From Pseudomonadota bacterium (GTDB taxonomy: Bacteria > Pseudomonadota > Gammaproteobacteria > Steroidobacterales > Steroidobacteraceae), in the NCBI GenBank assembly GCA_021780475.1, contig JAJXYR010000106.1, positions 1 through 38,171 of the forward strand: a stretch of DNA of 38,171 nucleotides. Reading direction: 5' to 3'. Under the pieces are notes generated by a model that had not been told where the DNA came from, did no database searches, and saw only the letters and a list, made by a program, of their open reading frames with translations. Position 1 is the first letter of the stretch; each line of letters opens with the position of its first letter. Positions 13,598 through 21,301 of this stretch are shown here, in pieces. Made by a program: the position numbers and the translations under genes.

Positions 13598-14479
13598 TCA
13601 GGCGTCGATGTGCATCAGCGCCTGGCCGGCGCGTATAAGCGCGCCGGCGACGATCCGCGCCGGAATCGAGATCCCCGGCGGCGCGAGCACGATGATCGTC
13701 GAGCCATGCTCGAACCACCCCATCTCCTCGCCTTTCGCGAGGTTGGCGGCGCACGGAATCACGTTCGGCCCCCGATAGCGCAGGTGCAGCCGCACGTCGA
13801 CGAAGCGCAGTCTGATGCTGGCGACGAGTATCGCCGCCACGGGAACCAGCGTGATCAGGTGCCCGGAGCGTAGCCGGCATCGGATCACCGCCCGTTCGTT
13901 TCTGCAAAACAGGCGTTCGACGCGCTTCAACGCGACCGGATTCACGTTCCAGGTGTCACCGGAGATGTAGTCGACCCGTTCCACCGTGCAATCCTGCGGC
14001 GCGTGGAATCGGTGGTACATGCCCGCTGTCAGGCGCAGCGTGGCATAGCTGCCGCCGAGATGGTACTGGGCGAGCCGTGGGTCGCCGAGGAGGTCCACGA
14101 TGGCGTAGGGGTGCCCCTTGGCCTGCAGCACGGTGCCGTCGCCGATTTCGCCGTGAGCGCCGACGAGCGCGTCGCAAGGGCTCGCCAGGCTCGACGGGTC
14201 GGCGTCCACCGGGCGCGCGCCGGCGGTCAATTCCCGCGTGAAGCACGCCTGCAGGCTGTTGAAGCGGGTCGTCTTGGCGTCGCGCAGGTCCAGGTCGCAG
14301 AACAGCTTCCAGATCGCGATGCCCGCGGCCGCGAACCAGCGGTTCTCGATTCGGCTCAGCCGTCCCATCAACCGTGTCGACCAGCGCCGCGGGATGCGGT
14401 TGGTCAGCAGGAAATTCAGATTCTCCGCGCCGATCAGCCGGCGCAGCCGGGCTCGCCCGGTCATCGAAGTGTCATTCAT
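13598..14479 (-). CDS. psd: Phosphatidylserine decarboxylase proenzyme
   Basis: 293 aa with TRELTAGARPVD, SPCDALVGAHGEI, MYHRFHAPQDCTVE, and the C-terminal self-cleavage motif WFEHGSTII. Confidence 0.92.
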   Translation of the reverse strand: MNDTSMTGRARLRRLIGAENLNFLLTNRIPRRWSTRLMGRLSRIENRWFAAAGIAIWKLFCDLDLRDAKTTRFNSLQACFTRELTAGARPVDADPSSLASPCDALVGAHGEIGDGTVLQAKGHPYAIVDLLGDPRLAQYHLGGSYATLRLTAGMYHRFHAPQDCTVERVDYISGDTWNVNPVALKRVERLFCRNERAVIRCRLRSGHLITLVPVAAILVASIRLRFVDVRLHLRYRGPNVIPCAANLAKGEEMGWFEHGSTIIVLAPPGISIPARIVAGALIRAGQALMHIDA

Positions 14480-14508
14480 GTGAAATAGAGTTCCCTTGGA
14501 GGAATTTC

Positions 14509-16239
14509 GTGCCGAACAAAAATCTCATTCACGCGCCCGCGGTCATCGCGGCGGGACTCGCGGCCCTCGTCGTGCTCGGCACGGTGCTGCGCCGGCTGCG
14601 GCGGCGCCTGCAGCTCTCCGCGGCCAAGCATCCCTCGCTCGCCGGGCACTCGCGCCTGTCGCGCCGAGTCGCCGCGCAGTTGCCGCTGGTCGAATACGGC
14701 GATGATCGGTTCTTCCGCGCAGACGACGCGCCGGACGGTGACGCGGCGGCGCGGCGTGCCGGCTTCGAGCGGCTCGCGATGCACTTCGCGCAGCGCCATG
14801 CGGTCACGGCGAAGCTCACGGCCGAGACGCGGGCCGGCGTATCCGACCTGCAGTTCACGTCGCGCTACCGGGTGCCGTTTCAATTCAGCCGCTATGTGCG
14901 CGAGCGGCTCCCCGTCGGCGCGTTCGTCGAGTCTTCGGCCGGGGTCGAAGTCGTCGACCTCGACGGCAACCGCTTCGTCGACCTGACCGGCTCGTACGGC
15001 GTCAACGTGTTCGGCTACGATTTCTACAAGGAGTGCATCGCGAGGGGCGCCGAACGGGTGCGCGACCTCGGTCCCGTGCTCGGCGCCTACCACCCCGTCA
15101 CCGCGTACAACGTCCGTCGTCTGCTCGAAATCTCCGGCCTGGATGAAGTCTCCTTCCACATGTCCGGCACCGAGGCGGTGATGCAGGCGGTGCGCCTCGC
15201 GCGCTACCACACCCGCCGGGACCATCTGGTGCGGTTTTGCGGCGCATACCACGGGTGGTGGGGCGATGTGCAACCGGGGGTCGGCAATCCGGTGCCCGCG
15301 CGCGAAACCTACACGCTGAAGGACATGGATGACGCCAGCCTGCGCGTATTGCGCACCCGCGACGACATCGCCTGCGTGCTGGTCAACCCCCTTCAGTCGC
15401 TGCATCCGAACTCGGCGGCGCCGGGGGACTCGACGCTGGTCGACAGCGGGCGCCGGGCGCACTTCGACCGCGACGCCTACGCGCACTGGCTGCGGGAACT
15501 TCGCACCGTGTGCTCCGCGCGGGGGATCGTGCTCATTTTTGACGAAGTATTCGTCGGCTTCCGGCTGGCCGCGGGCGGCGCGCAGGAATATTTCGGCGTT
15601 CGCGCCGACATGGTCACCTACGGCAAGACCGTCGCCGGAGGCCTCCCGGTGGGGGTGCTTTGCGGACGCCGCGAGCTGATGCGGCGATTCCGCGAGGATC
15701 GGCCCGCGGACGTCTGCTTCGCCCGCGGCACGTTCAACGCCCATCCCTACGTGATGGGCGCCATGCATGAATTTCTGCATCGTATCGAGGGTGAGCCGGT
15801 GCGCGCGCTCTACCGCGGCCTCGATGAGGTGTGGAATTCCCGGGCGCGTGCCGTGAACGGGCGCCTCGAGGCCGAGGGCCTGCCGGTGCGCGTCGCCAAC
15901 CTGTCGACGATCTGGACCATGTATTACACCCGGCCGTCCCGCTACAACTGGATGTACCAGTTCTACCTGCGGGCAGCCGGCATCGCGCTGTCCTGGGTGG
16001 GAACGGGCCGCTTGATCTTCAGCTTGAACTTCTCCGACGCGGATTTCGACCTGGCGGCCGACCGGATCGTGTCGGCCGCCAGGCAGATGCAACAAGACGC
16101 GTGGTGGCGGGCCGGACCTGAAGTGACGAACCGGTCCATCAAGCGGCGCGTGCTCCGGGAGCTCCTTCAGGCCCGATTCTCGCCGATCGCCGGGTCGATC
16201 AACTCCCCGCGCAACAAATGGAGCGGCGATTTGCAGTAG
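14509..16239 (+). CDS. Class III PLP-dependent aminotransferase (glutamate-1-semialdehyde aminomutase-like) with N-terminal membrane anchor
   Basis: GTG start at 14509 behind TTGGAGG. Predicted TM HAPAVIAAGLAALVVLGTVL; motifs FHMSGTEAVMQAVRLAR, LIFDEVFVGFR and PLP lysine VTYGKTVAGGLPVG. The track start at 14374 lies inside antisense psd. Confidence 0.85.
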   Translation: MPNKNLIHAPAVIAAGLAALVVLGTVLRRLRRRLQLSAAKHPSLAGHSRLSRRVAAQLPLVEYGDDRFFRADDAPDGDAAARRAGFERLAMHFAQRHAVTAKLTAETRAGVSDLQFTSRYRVPFQFSRYVRERLPVGAFVESSAGVEVVDLDGNRFVDLTGSYGVNVFGYDFYKECIARGAERVRDLGPVLGAYHPVTAYNVRRLLEISGLDEVSFHMSGTEAVMQAVRLARYHTRRDHLVRFCGAYHGWWGDVQPGVGNPVPARETYTLKDMDDASLRVLRTRDDIACVLVNPLQSLHPNSAAPGDSTLVDSGRRAHFDRDAYAHWLRELRTVCSARGIVLIFDEVFVGFRLAAGGAQEYFGVRADMVTYGKTVAGGLPVGVLCGRRELMRRFREDRPADVCFARGTFNAHPYVMGAMHEFLHRIEGEPVRALYRGLDEVWNSRARAVNGRLEAEGLPVRVANLSTIWTMYYTRPSRYNWMYQFYLRAAGIALSWVGTGRLIFSLNFSDADFDLAADRIVSAARQMQQDAWWRAGPEVTNRSIKRRVLRELLQARFSPIAGSINSPRNKWSGDLQ

Positions 16240-16775
16240 AGCATGGCGTCGTGGAACGGGTCCGTCAAAATCTTCGTGATCCACACGAGCCCGGTCTGCA
16301 AGTCCTTGATGATCATCAGCTGCACCGTGCGGAACAGCAATCCGCCGATGCCGACGGCGAGCCAGACCTCGCCGACACGGCGCACGAAACCCGCATGGCT
16401 CGCGCCGGTCTTGAACACCCCGAAAAGCGTCGGATCGAACCACAGCACCGCCGGCGCCGCGGCCCAGATCGCGAGCAGCACGGCCTTGCGGCGCAGGTTG
16501 TAGCCCACCTTGATGTCCTCCTTGTGTTCGTGGGTCGCCTGATTGGCTTCGTCATAGCCTTTCGGCTCGAAGAAGAAATGCCCGGCCTGCCGGCTCGTCA
16601 TGGCGAGCAGCCAGCCGATCAGCGCGGAGACCACCGGGTCCTTGAAGACCTCCGCGTAGGCGACGATGAAGCACAGCGCGCTGAAGAAGTGCAGCGATTG
16701 ATTGATGCGGCTGTGATGATAGTAGCGATGATCGTCCCATCGCTGTATCGCAAGGGCTTCCTTGAAACTATGCAT
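16167..16775 (-). CDS. Integral membrane protein resembling the Mpo1/DUF962 family (possible fatty-acid oxygenase)
   Basis: 202 aa: WDDHRYYHHSRINQSLHFFSALCFIVAYAEVF...SRQAGHFFFEPKGYDEANQATHEH. The YHH-x-N-x-LH and GHxxFE spacing resembles Mpo1 (YHHNPKNxxIH ... GHGVFEK). Multiple TM segments. Confidence 0.55.
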   Translation of the reverse strand: MHSFKEALAIQRWDDHRYYHHSRINQSLHFFSALCFIVAYAEVFKDPVVSALIGWLLAMTSRQAGHFFFEPKGYDEANQATHEHKEDIKVGYNLRRKAVLLAIWAAAPAVLWFDPTLFGVFKTGASHAGFVRRVGEVWLAVGIGGLLFRTVQLMIIKDLQTGLVWITKILTDPFHDAMLYCKSPLHLLRGELIDPAIGENRA

Positions 16776-16820
16776 GTTGAATCCTCGAAGGGGGAGACGG
16801 GGTCGGAACTTCAGACAACG

Positions 16821-16835
16821 GAATATAGGATATTC
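16821..16835. promoter_or_regulatory. Perfect dyad GAATAT-agg-ATATTC in a divergent intergenic region
   Basis: 6-bp arms with 3-bp spacer between the divergent starts at 16775 (-) and 16983 (+). Confidence 0.35.
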
Positions 16836-16982
16836 ATTGCAGCCTGATTACAGTGCGGCCGGGCGGCGCGACGCGGCGGAGGTTTGTAAGAAAACTTTGT
16901 CGCTCCCTTAACAAAAGCGTCATTGCCCGGTGAGATCGTGACGCTCGGCGCAGATCCGGATAGCGGCGCGGGTGGGCCATTC

Positions 16983-18029
16983 ATGCGAATCATGATAGTC
17001 AGCGACGCCTGGCTTCCTCAGACCAACGGAGTCGTCAGCACGCTCGCGAACACGGCGGCGTGGCTCGAACGCTTCGGCCACGAGGTGAGCATGGTCACCC
17101 CGCGCGAATTCTCCAGCATTCCCTGCCCGACCTATTCGGAGATACGCCTGTCGCTGCTGCCGTACCGTGGCGTCGCCCGCCGCGTGGAATCCTTCGCGCC
17201 GCAGGCTCTGCACATCGCCACCGAGGGACCGCTCGGCCTCGCCGCCCGCCGCTATTGCGTCGGACATGGAGCGCGCTTCACGACCTCTTATCACACCCAG
17301 TTTCCGCAATATTTGCGGGCACGGTTTCCGGTGCCGCTCGGCCTGACCTACGGACTGCTGCGGCGTTTTCACGGAGCGGCGACGCGCTGCATGGTCAGCA
17401 CCCCGTCCGTTCGGCGCGATCTGGAGGCGCGCGGGTTCGTCAACATCGCGACCTGGCGCCGCGGCGTGGACACGGAACTGTTCAAACCGCGGGAAAAATC
17501 GTTCCTGAACCTGCCCCGCCCGATCGCCGCCTACGTCGGCCGCGTCGCGGTCGAGAAGAACATCGGCGCATTTCTGGAGATGAGCTGGCCCGGCAGCAAG
17601 ATCGTGATCGGCGACGGTCCGGCGCGCACCGGGCTGCAATCGCAGTTCCGGGACGCGCATTTCCTCGGGTTCCGATTCGGTGAGGACCTGGCGATGCACC
17701 TCGCCGCCGCCGACGTCATGGTCTTTCCGAGCCGTACCGACACGTTCGGACTGGTGAACCTGGAAGCGATGGCCTGCGGAGTCCCGGTTGCCGCCTATCC
17801 GGTCACGGGGCCCGTCGATGTCATCGACGACGGCGTCACGGGCGCGCTCGACGAGGATCTCGCGCGCGCCGCGGCGCGCGCGCTCACCCTGGATCCGAAG
17901 GGCTGCCGCGACCGCGCGCTGCGCGCCGGATGGGATGTGTGCAGCCGCGAGTTCGAGCGCAATCTGACGTCATGCACGGCCGCCACCGCGGCGGCGGCCG
18001 CGCCGGCCCCGTACGTCAGCCAAAATTGA
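16983..18029 (+). CDS. GT4-family glycosyltransferase (GT-B fold, lipid/mannosyl-type)
   Basis: MRIMIVSDAWLPQTNGVVSTLANTAAWLERFGHEVSMVTP, HIATEGPLGLAARRYC, TTSYHTQFPQYL, VMVFPSRTDTFGLVNLEAMACGVPVAAYPVTGPVDVI. Confidence 0.87.
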   Translation: MRIMIVSDAWLPQTNGVVSTLANTAAWLERFGHEVSMVTPREFSSIPCPTYSEIRLSLLPYRGVARRVESFAPQALHIATEGPLGLAARRYCVGHGARFTTSYHTQFPQYLRARFPVPLGLTYGLLRRFHGAATRCMVSTPSVRRDLEARGFVNIATWRRGVDTELFKPREKSFLNLPRPIAAYVGRVAVEKNIGAFLEMSWPGSKIVIGDGPARTGLQSQFRDAHFLGFRFGEDLAMHLAAADVMVFPSRTDTFGLVNLEAMACGVPVAAYPVTGPVDVIDDGVTGALDEDLARAAARALTLDPKGCRDRALRAGWDVCSREFERNLTSCTAATAAAAAPAPYVSQN

Positions 18030-19098
18030 TCTTGGCTTCGAGATTGCTGCGGGAGTCGGCGCTGGACAGCGCCTCCTCCAGTTCGATGCGTCCCTCGCGC
18101 ACGAGGTTGTAGAGCGAGCTGTCGAAACTCAGCATCCCGCGCTCCGTGCCGGTTCTGATCGCCTCCTTCAAGCCGATCACGTCGCCCTTCTTGATCAGGT
18201 CGCTGATGTGGGGGGTGTTGACCATGACCTCGGAGGCGGCGACACGCACGCCGCTTTTCGCGGGGACCAGGCGCTGTGAAAGGACGGCCCGCAGGTACTG
18301 GGACAGGTCCAGGAATATCTGGCTGTGCTGGTCGCGCGGGAACATGTTGATGATGCGGTCGAGCGCCTCCGCGCAATTGTTCGCGTGCAGCGTCGCGATG
18401 CAAAGATGGCCGGTCCCGGCCAGCGTGATGGCGGATTCCATCGTTTCACGGTCGCGGATCTCGCCGATCAGCACGACATCCGGCGCCGCGCGCACGGCGC
18501 TGCGCAGCGCGCGCGCGAAGGACTTCGTGTCGAGCCCGACCTCGCGCTGATTGATTATCGATTTCTTGTTCGAGTGCAGGAATTCGATCGGATCCTCGAT
18601 CGTCAATATATGGTCGGACGAGGTCTCGTTGCGGTAGTTGATCATCGCCGCGAGCGTCGTCGACTTTCCGGCGCCGGCGCCTCCCACCATCAGGATCAGG
18701 CCGCGCTTGAGCATCACGAGGTCCTTCAGGACCTCGGGCATGCCGAGATCCTCGAGCCGCGGCATCTCCGCGGTGATGTAGCGCAGCACCATCGCCGGAT
18801 AGCCGCGCTGATAGAAGACGTTGACGCGAAATCGGCCTAGGCCGGGCTCGGATATCGCGAAATCGATCTCCAGCTCCTCGTTGAAATGATCGATCTGTTC
18901 CTGCGTCATCAGGCCGAGCGCCGCCTGGCGCACCGTTTCGGGACTGAGAACCTGCTTGTTGACGGGGAATATCTTGCCTTCGATCTTGATCTTGACCGGC
19001 GCGTTGCAGGTGAAGAACAGGTCCGAGGCCTTTTTCTCCACCATCAGCTTGAACAGCGGCTTGGTGTTCATCGACTGCGCGGGAGCGGCGGCGGACAT
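18016..19098 (-). CDS. PilU-like PilT-family ATPase (third paralog)
   Basis: 360 aa GspE/PilT ATPase: VGGAGAGKSTTLAAMINYRN, IEDPIEFLH, LIGEIRDRETMESAITLAGTGHLCIATLHANN, PilU-type HISDLIKKGDV. Confidence 0.88.
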   Translation of the reverse strand: MSAAAPAQSMNTKPLFKLMVEKKASDLFFTCNAPVKIKIEGKIFPVNKQVLSPETVRQAALGLMTQEQIDHFNEELEIDFAISEPGLGRFRVNVFYQRGYPAMVLRYITAEMPRLEDLGMPEVLKDLVMLKRGLILMVGGAGAGKSTTLAAMINYRNETSSDHILTIEDPIEFLHSNKKSIINQREVGLDTKSFARALRSAVRAAPDVVLIGEIRDRETMESAITLAGTGHLCIATLHANNCAEALDRIINMFPRDQHSQIFLDLSQYLRAVLSQRLVPAKSGVRVAASEVMVNTPHISDLIKKGDVIGLKEAIRTGTERGMLSFDSSLYNLVREGRIELEEALSSADSRSNLEAKINFG

Positions 19099-19101
19099 GC
19101 G

Positions 19102-20259
19102 TTAAAACACCTGGCCTTCTTCTTCCTCGAGAATCTTGAGCGACTGGCCCGGATCCTCCGGGTTCTTGAGTTCGCGCTTGCTCTCGAGCTTGACGCGCAG
19201 GCGCAGTTCATTCTTGGAGTCGGCGTTGCGCAAGGCATCCTCGTAGGAGACGAGTCCGGCCTCGTAAAGCTCGAAAAGCGCCTGGTCGAATGTCTTCATG
19301 CCGAGCCGGTTGGAGCGCGCCATGACGTCCTTGATCTTGGACACATCGCCCTTGAAGATCAGATCGGAGATCAACGGCGACTGCAACATGATTTCCATCG
19401 CGGCGATCCGGCCGGACCCGGATTCCCGCGGCAGCAGGCGCTGCGAAATCAACGCCCGGATGTTCAAGCTTAGGTCCATCAGCAGCTGCTCGCGCCTCTC
19501 CTCGGGAAAGAAGTTGATGATCCGGTCCAGCGCTTGATTGGAGCTGTTGGCGTGCAGCGTCGCGAGCACGAGATGCCCCGTCTCCGCGAACTGGATGCAA
19601 TATTCCATCGTCTCGCGATCGCGGATCTCGCCGATCAGGATCACGTCCGGCGCCTGCCGCAGCGTGTTCTTGAGCGCGAGGTGCCAGCTTTCGCAGTCGA
19701 CGCCGACCTCGCGATGGGTGATCACGCAGCCCTTGTGCGCGTGCACGTACTCGACCGGATCCTCGATGGTGACGATGTGGCCGCGGGTCTTCTCGTTGCG
19801 GTAACCGACCATCGAGGCGAGCGATGTCGACTTGCCCGAACCGGTTCCGCCGACGAGGATCACCAAGCCGCGCTTGGAGAGCACCACGTCCTTCAGCACC
19901 GACGGCAGTTCGAGTTCCTCGAGCGACGGTATCTTCGCGTTGATGGTGCGGATGACCGCGCCGGTGAAGCCCTGCTGGATGAAGGCGCTGACGCGGAACC
20001 GGCCGATTCCGGGCGGCGCGATCGCGAAATTGCATTCCTTGGTGGAGTCGAAATCCCGGGTCTGCCGGTCGTTCATGATCGCGCGGACCATCCCGGCGCT
20101 CTGCTCCGGGGTCAACGTACGTTCGGACTGCGGCCGGATTTCCCCGTCGATCTTGATCGCCGGCGGAAATCCGGCCGTGATGAACAGGTCGGATCCTTTT
20201 TTCTCCACCATGCGCCGCAGCAGATCCTGCATCAACCGAATCGCTTGTTCGCGTTCCAT
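19102..20259 (-). CDS. pilU: Type IV pilus ATPase PilU
   Basis: 385 aa: VGGTGSGKSTSLASMVGYRN, GEIRDRETMEYCIQFAETGHLVLATLHAN, PLISDLIFKGDVSKIKDVMARSNRLGMKTFDQALFELYEAG. Confidence 0.93.
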   Translation of the reverse strand: MEREQAIRLMQDLLRRMVEKKGSDLFITAGFPPAIKIDGEIRPQSERTLTPEQSAGMVRAIMNDRQTRDFDSTKECNFAIAPPGIGRFRVSAFIQQGFTGAVIRTINAKIPSLEELELPSVLKDVVLSKRGLVILVGGTGSGKSTSLASMVGYRNEKTRGHIVTIEDPVEYVHAHKGCVITHREVGVDCESWHLALKNTLRQAPDVILIGEIRDRETMEYCIQFAETGHLVLATLHANSSNQALDRIINFFPEERREQLLMDLSLNIRALISQRLLPRESGSGRIAAMEIMLQSPLISDLIFKGDVSKIKDVMARSNRLGMKTFDQALFELYEAGLVSYEDALRNADSKNELRLRVKLESKRELKNPEDPGQSLKILEEEEGQVF

Positions 20260-20260
20260 A

Positions 20261-21301
20261 TCAGATGCTGTCCTTGTTCTGCGCCTTGAAGCGTGCTTCC
20301 TCGCGGCTCACGACACCCTTTTGCACGAGGTCCTGCAGGCACTGGTCCAGGGTCTGCATGCCCTGGCCCTGACCGGTCTGGATGGCCGAGTACATTTGCG
20401 CAATTTTTCCCTCGCGAATCAAGTTGCGGATCGCCGGGGTGCCGATCATGATTTCATGCGCTGCGATACGGCCGCCGCCGACGCGCTTCATCAAGGTCTG
20501 GGAAATAACGGCGCGCAGGCTCTCGGACAGCATCGCGCGCACCATTTCCTTTTCGGCCGCCGGGAAAACGTCGACGATGCGATCGATCGTCTTGGCGGCG
20601 GAACTCGTGTGCAGGGTGCCGAACACCAGATGCCCGGTCTCTGCGGCGGTCAGTGCCAGCCGGATCGTCTCCAGATCGCGCATCTCGCCGACCAGCACGA
20701 CGTCCGGATCCTCGCGCAGCGCCGAGCGCAGCGCCTCGCTGAATCCCAGGGTGTCCCTGTGCACCTCGCGTTGATTCACCAGGCAGCGCTTGCTTTCATG
20801 GACGAACTCGATCGGATCCTCGATGGTTATAATGTGATCGGGGCGGTTGTCGTTGCAGTGGTTCACCATGGCCGCAAGGGTGGTGGATTTCCCGGATCCG
20901 GTCGGCCCCGTCACCAGCACGAGTCCGCGAGGAAGCATGCACAAGTCTTTGAAACTTTTGGGGGCGTTCAATTCGTCCAAGGACAGGATCGTCGACGGGA
21001 TGGTGCGAAAGACCGCCCCCGCGCCGCGATTCTGGTTGAACGCATTGACCCGGAATCGCGCGAGCTTGGGGATCTCGAAGGAAAAGTCCGTCTCGAAGAA
21101 TTCCTCGAATGCCTTCCGTTGCTTGTCGTTCATGATGTCGTACACCATGCTGTGCACTTCCTTGTGCGCGAGCGCCGGCATATTGATGCGTTTGACGTCG
21201 CCGTCGACGCGTATCATCGGCGGCACCCCCGCGGAGAGGTGCAAGTCCGACGCGTTGTTCTTCACCGCGAACGCGAGAAGCTGCGCGATATCGACCGCCA
21301 T
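20261..21301 (-). CDS. pilT: Type IV pilus retraction ATPase PilT
   Basis: 346 aa: MAVDIAQLLAFAVKNNASDLHLSAGVPPMIRVDGDV, GPTGSGKSTTLAAMV, TPAIRNLIREGKIAQMYSAIQTG. Confidence 0.97.
   Translation of the reverse strand: MAVDIAQLLAFAVKNNASDLHLSAGVPPMIRVDGDVKRINMPALAHKEVHSMVYDIMNDKQRKAFEEFFETDFSFEIPKLARFRVNAFNQNRGAGAVFRTIPSTILSLDELNAPKSFKDLCMLPRGLVLVTGPTGSGKSTTLAAMVNHCNDNRPDHIITIEDPIEFVHESKRCLVNQREVHRDTLGFSEALRSALREDPDVVLVGEMRDLETIRLALTAAETGHLVFGTLHTSSAAKTIDRIVDVFPAAEKEMVRAMLSESLRAVISQTLMKRVGGGRIAAHEIMIGTPAIRNLIREGKIAQMYSAIQTGQGQGMQTLDQCLQDLVQKGVVSREEARFKAQNKDSI

Follow-up and report, generated by a model that had tools for sequence, protein, structure and literature searches.

What brings a second phosphatidylserine decarboxylase, a membrane-anchored aminotransferase, an Mpo1-like membrane protein and a glycosyltransferase together in one block of a bacterial genome? 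The four genes occupy positions 13598 to 18029 of a 38,171-nucleotide stretch of DNA (contig JAJXYR010000106.1 of assembly GCA_021780475.1; hereafter the window) from a gammaproteobacterium of the family Steroidobacteraceae. Phosphate-short bacteria replace phospholipids by phosphorus-free lipids, and the lipids seen outnumber the pathways known. Judging from sequence analysis, we propose with a probability of roughly 65% that the block is a phosphate-starvation lipid-remodelling module. Its support comes from gene content, conservation, co-occurrence, a gene fusion, recurring Pho-box-like sites, lipid-gene neighbours and the likeness of the aminotransferase (AT) fold to the aminotransferase (AMT) domain of mycosubtilin synthase. 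The preliminary description of this DNA had already put the block forward as a candidate uncharacterised lipid-modification locus, a view strengthened here by co-occurrence, one-strand arrangements, the AT-Mpo1 fusion and lipid-gene neighbours; the phosphate-starvation (Pho-box) context is likely, and is an addition to that account.

The block and its constant core

In the window, the psd paralogue (13598–14479, minus strand, 293 aa), the AT gene (14509–16239, plus strand, 576 aa), the gene for the Mpo1-like polytopic protein (16167–16775, minus strand, 202 aa) and the GT4 glycosyltransferase gene (16983–18029, plus strand, start set by congener alignment) form two divergent pairs. As first described, all four genes are in place, 29 nt separate the divergent psd and AT starts, and the block is flanked by pyrB on the left and a run of PilT/PilU-family ATPase genes on the right. 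The alternating strands rule out a four-gene operon in the window. AT and the Mpo1-like gene converge, their ends overlapping over 73 nt (16167–16239).

AT is present in 20 of 22 other genomes of the genus, and the psd-AT-Mpo1-GT4 order between pyrB and the pil genes is kept wherever contigs permit. Since one congener, G006, carries all four genes with neither the pyrB nor the pil flank (locus L054), the block is a separable unit. The preliminary description had called for a genome-neighbourhood analysis of the AT and Mpo1-like families with psd, and had named rare co-occurrence of the four genes as a refutation. A scan with one genome per species (84,980 species) found at least 592 stretches encoding an AT relative, the best 80 of which were analysed and span Alpha-, Beta- and Gammaproteobacteria. 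Rare co-occurrence was not seen; instead, it is near-total across classes, with psd near 78 of the best 80 AT loci and an Mpo1-like gene near 78 as well, and, of the four gaps, three fall at contig ends (L098, L134 and L136). Of 200 sampled Pseudomonadota genomes, 15 carry AT, and the Mpo1-like gene is confined to 14 of these 15; in 274 genomes of the window's class, the two occur in an identical set of nine, and neither sample holds a genome with an Mpo1-like gene and no AT. The co-occurrence of AT and Mpo1-like is far from chance, though related genomes are not independent.

The arrangement of the genes varies. In L092 and L113, psd, AT and the Mpo1-like gene all share one strand. Four loci of an alphaproteobacterial-type family outside the window's class (L161–L164) carry AT, a ~900-residue protein with a C-terminal GT4 part, psd and the Mpo1-like gene consecutively on one strand, and the same series recurs within the window's class in G280 (L187). 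In these five loci the GT4 part sits behind a ~500-residue N-terminal part with HxH, HN, HP and DDH motifs, which resembles PHP phosphoesterases by eye and has no Pfam match. In G324 (L186), AT and the Mpo1-like protein form a single 738-residue open reading frame (ORF), both profiles matching the same open frame, with DUF3419 (BtaA-type), methyltransferase, PlcP-like and GT4 genes close by; the GT4 homologue there, 54% identical to that of the window, is a few kb from the PlcP-like gene. Because the G324 fusion locus is without psd, and G324 and G319 each have a single Psd in the genome, the constant core is AT plus Mpo1-like, with psd as a near-constant partner. The fusion implies that the predicted AT and Mpo1-like steps would be coupled.

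The four encoded proteins

AT starts with GTG at 14509, preceded by GGAGG at 14498–14502, and belongs to class III (PF00202). It has one N-terminal hydrophobic helix (residues 9–27, Kyte-Doolittle 2.33; 8–39 in the AlphaFold2 model) followed by an Arg-rich stretch; this membrane anchor is conserved, and the pyridoxal phosphate (PLP) lysine, K373, is invariant. The class III assignment and the anchor of the preliminary description hold; as an addition to its glutamate-1-semialdehyde (GSA) type label, AT is closer to aminotransferase domains of polyketide synthases and non-ribosomal peptide synthetases (PKS/NRPS) than to GSA aminomutase. The nearest solved relative, by sequence (6kfm, phmmer E 3.4e-43, ~26% identity) and by fold (Foldseek E 2.3e-29, TM 0.83 on target), is the mycosubtilin AMT domain (6kfm/6kfu), followed by GSA aminomutases and beta-transaminases, and the best non-orthologous matches in congeners are ORFs of 2,200–2,700 residues, the size of PKS/NRPS megasynthases. 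The mycosubtilin AMT domain acts on a beta-ketoacyl thioester. Within MycA this domain lies where the PKS and NRPS parts meet, and it draws its amine from Gln (PMC3870968). AT shares the PLP lysine with this domain, but is stand-alone, membrane-anchored and without an adjoining acyl carrier protein (ACP) or ketosynthase. The best NCBIfam matches of AT are GSA aminomutase profiles, of which TIGR00713, with a cut-off of 527.3 bits, gives 172.7; from this cut-off and the gene context we reject a HemL/tetrapyrrole role. Most congeneric ATs stop ~6–18 residues sooner, and the last ~18 aa of the window AT lie past their stop; this tail is conserved because the opposite strand encodes the Mpo1-like gene.

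For the Mpo1-like protein, the earlier Mpo1/DUF962-like assignment is plausible from profile matches: PF06127, whose family name refers to 2-hydroxy fatty acid dioxygenase, is matched by 11 of 11 congeneric homologues (best 4e-5), distant members reach up to 23.5 bits, and the window protein matches weakly (E 0.004, 17.7 bits; gathering cut-off 24). Across 26 sequences taken from several classes, residues H20, N25, H29, H66 and E70 do not vary. A structure model with a predicted local distance difference test (pLDDT) score of 88.7 found no PDB match in a fold search (best E 2.6). Yeast Mpo1, a 2-hydroxy-palmitic acid dioxygenase, is alike in the PF06127 match of the homologues and in the conserved His/Asn/Glu pattern; the protein of the block differs from it in scoring below the Pfam cut-off, in its greater length, and in always occurring with AT, to which it is fused in G324. 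Of a putative Fe(II)-dependent dioxygenase, the protein shows the conserved His/Glu residues. A second Mpo1-like gene (1–560), 48% identical to that of the window, is found at L128, ~9 kb away from the block there.

The locus Psd scores well above the family cut-offs (PF02666, E 1.4e-52, 178.7 bits, cut-off 22; TIGR00163, 148.7 bits, cut-off 111.75) and, like known Psd, keeps the GST self-cleavage motif and the catalytic Asp/His, with D103, H156, H159 and G259-S260-T261 invariant among 19 homologues. Unlike known Psd, it is the second, divergent copy in its genome (~33% identity to the other) and is tied to AT and Mpo1-like; its divergence allows for a putative substrate other than phosphatidylserine. 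Two or more Psd matches occur in 32 of 34 AT-bearing genomes checked (G135 counted through a weak second match), and the locus-free congener G003 has one. The psd start is uncertain: at 14458–14479 the first codons (MNDTSMT) coincide with a Pho-box-like site, and Met6 may be the true start, in which case the conserved 'DTSMT' would be regulatory DNA.

The fourth protein is a GT4 glycosyltransferase, as first proposed, by its Glyco_transf_4 and Glycos_transf_1 families (PF13692, PF13439, PF00534); its NCBIfam matches are all far below cut-off and none names the protein. GT4 genes lie near 62 of the best 80 AT loci, in subfamilies that differ from clade to clade (~50–76% or ~30–35% identity to the window's).

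Pho-box-like sites and lipid-gene neighbours

A Pho-box consensus is CTGTCAT-N4-CTGTCAT. We scanned with this pattern, counting mismatches over 14 positions, and found three sites with at most three mismatches in the window, two of them at the divergent promoters. The first (CGGTCATCGAAGTGTCAT, 14458–14475, plus strand, 12/14) overlaps the psd start and faces AT, 33 nt before its start; the second (CTGTAATCAGGCTGCAAT, 16836–16853, minus strand, 11/14) faces the Mpo1-like gene, 60 nt before its start, with congener sites at 52–60 nt. By number alone, the window's sites do not stand out from chance (expected 1.49), so the case for them rests on position, conservation and controls. Upstream of AT, sites of at least 11/14 on its own strand are found in 24 of 64 non-redundant loci, against 0 for the other strand, 3 for the reversed pattern and 0.3 for shuffles. 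Upstream of the Mpo1-like gene they are found in 15 of 59, against 5, 0 and 0.3, the opposite-strand direction there facing GT4 in many loci; upstream of psd, the count is 1 of 63. Both the AT-facing and the Mpo1-like-facing sites recur across genera. The window's genome contains nine sites with at most two mismatches against one for the control, and others of its sites precede genes for an MGDG-synthase-like glycosyltransferase, a phosphoesterase and an OmpR-type regulator. This glycosyltransferase gene (L172, 270–1439) has a weak MGDG-synthase match (E 1e-4), and its site lies 61 nt before its start.

Recurrent neighbours at the best 80 AT loci include a PmtA-like phospholipid methyltransferase (17), a PlcP-like phosphoesterase (12) and an LplT-like transporter (10), and a Pfam tally over 116 neighbours agrees with these lipid-gene families. 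DUF3419 (BtaA-type) genes adjoin some copies of the block, and in L163 the gene after the one-strand block encodes OlsF, with a score over its cut-off. Ketosynthase, ACP and acyl ligase families are not prominent among the frequent neighbours. A ~280-residue hydrophobic protein with no Pfam or NCBIfam match recurs beside the block in L078 (12304–13152) and seven other loci.

Genes already known to remodel lipids include PlcP-Agt and those for betaine lipids and ornithine lipids (PMC4796936, PMC9239053). PlcP-Agt, which acts under phosphorus limitation, shares with the block a GT4-group lipid glycosyltransferase and the Pho-box control of remodelling genes predicted here, and the likeness extends to the PlcP-like, BtaA-type and OlsF genes found close to some copies. 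Compared with PlcP-Agt as described, the block adds AT, the Mpo1-like protein and the Psd paralogue and has no plcP, a PlcP-like gene lying elsewhere in the same genome. Agt makes monoglucosyldiacylglycerol (MGDG) or glucuronic acid diacylglycerol (GADG) from diacylglycerol, and the window GT4 may be likened to it through its GT4 fold families. In open-licence literature we found no description of the psd-AT-Mpo1 combination, though one may exist elsewhere; the four-gene set is apparently undescribed and widely conserved in Proteobacteria.

A proposed pathway and its alternatives

Like the preliminary description, we infer the aminolipid or head-group chemistry. At low phosphate, PhoB would act at the two Pho-box-like sites, switching on AT from one promoter and the Mpo1-like gene from the other; the two products would then act one after the other on a single membrane intermediate. 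The AT PLP domain would be held at the membrane through its anchor, probably at the inner leaflet judging from the Arg-rich stretch, where it would add an amino group to, or take one from, a carbonyl-bearing lipid; the Mpo1-like protein would carry out an adjoining iron- and O2-dependent step. The dedicated Psd paralogue may decarboxylate an amino-acid head group, feeding or ending the pathway, and GT4, from its family, would glycosylate diacylglycerol in parallel. The outcome would be a phosphorus-sparing aminolipid beside a glycolipid. In a more specific version, which we consider quite unlikely, the product of the AT/Mpo1-like/Psd core would be a phosphorus-free aminolipid not described before, whose head group might be a beta-amino acid, for instance through a bacterial route to betaine lipids of the diacylglyceryl hydroxymethyltrimethyl-beta-alanine (DGTA) type; this version would fit the presence, beside DUF3419 genes in some loci, of a beta-transaminase-like enzyme together with a decarboxylase and a methyltransferase. 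The bacterial DGTA-type route awaits characterisation in marine heterotrophic bacteria (PMC4796936).

Several observations weigh against a phosphate-starvation lipid-remodelling module. Besides the chance-level site count of the window and the sub-threshold Mpo1-like score, the best PstS candidate of the genome, a positive control, has no strong Pho-box site, a strong site is missing at many AT loci, and one half-site runs into the region of the psd start codon. In L085 there is no Mpo1-like gene within 10 kb of AT, and G324 and G319 carry AT and Mpo1-like with no psd at the locus.

The chemistry might instead concern acyl chains: AT would aminate a beta-ketoacyl thioester to give a beta-aminoacyl chain, the alpha position next to it would be oxidised by the Mpo1-like protein, and the product would be built into a membrane lipid on which Psd acts. 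The AMT domains and beta-transaminases nearest to AT in sequence and fold, the naming of PF06127 and the OlsF gene of L163, whose product acylates an amino acid, point in this direction; the lack of prominent ketosynthase, ACP and acyl ligase families among the neighbours, the dedicated Psd and methyltransferases, which indicate head groups, and the mere ~26% identity to 6kfm make it unlikely. Class III aminotransferase relatives also act on phosphoethanolamine. The block could accordingly be imagined to remove head groups, with Psd yielding phosphatidylethanolamine, AT deaminating or eliminating the ethanolamine, the Mpo1-like protein oxidising the remnant and GT4 glycosylating the freed diacylglycerol. 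PlcP-like and GT4 neighbours and a Psd beside AT would suit such a phospholipid-to-glycolipid route, but several carriers, the window's genome included, have PlcP-like genes doing the removal in one step, and among the listed solved structures AT is closer to other branches than to the phospho-lyases, so that we regard this as very unlikely. A role in soluble metabolism, with AT a HemL-like tetrapyrrole enzyme or general transaminase beside lipid genes by accident, is hardly credible, since its top-ranking GSA aminomutase profiles stand against the TIGR00713 shortfall, the conserved anchor, the conserved linkage and the AT-Mpo1 fusion.

With its three-enzyme core in many Proteobacteria, its Pho-box-like sites and a fusion suggesting coupled steps, the proposed lipid-remodelling module is a testable candidate for a missing pathway. 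If true, it would give the Mpo1-like family a bacterial role, and a new low-phosphate membrane lipid may await identification. Beyond the block, the right flank (18016–21301, minus strand) holds three tandem PilT/PilU-family ATPase genes, the usual number being two, and this arrangement is kept genus-wide.

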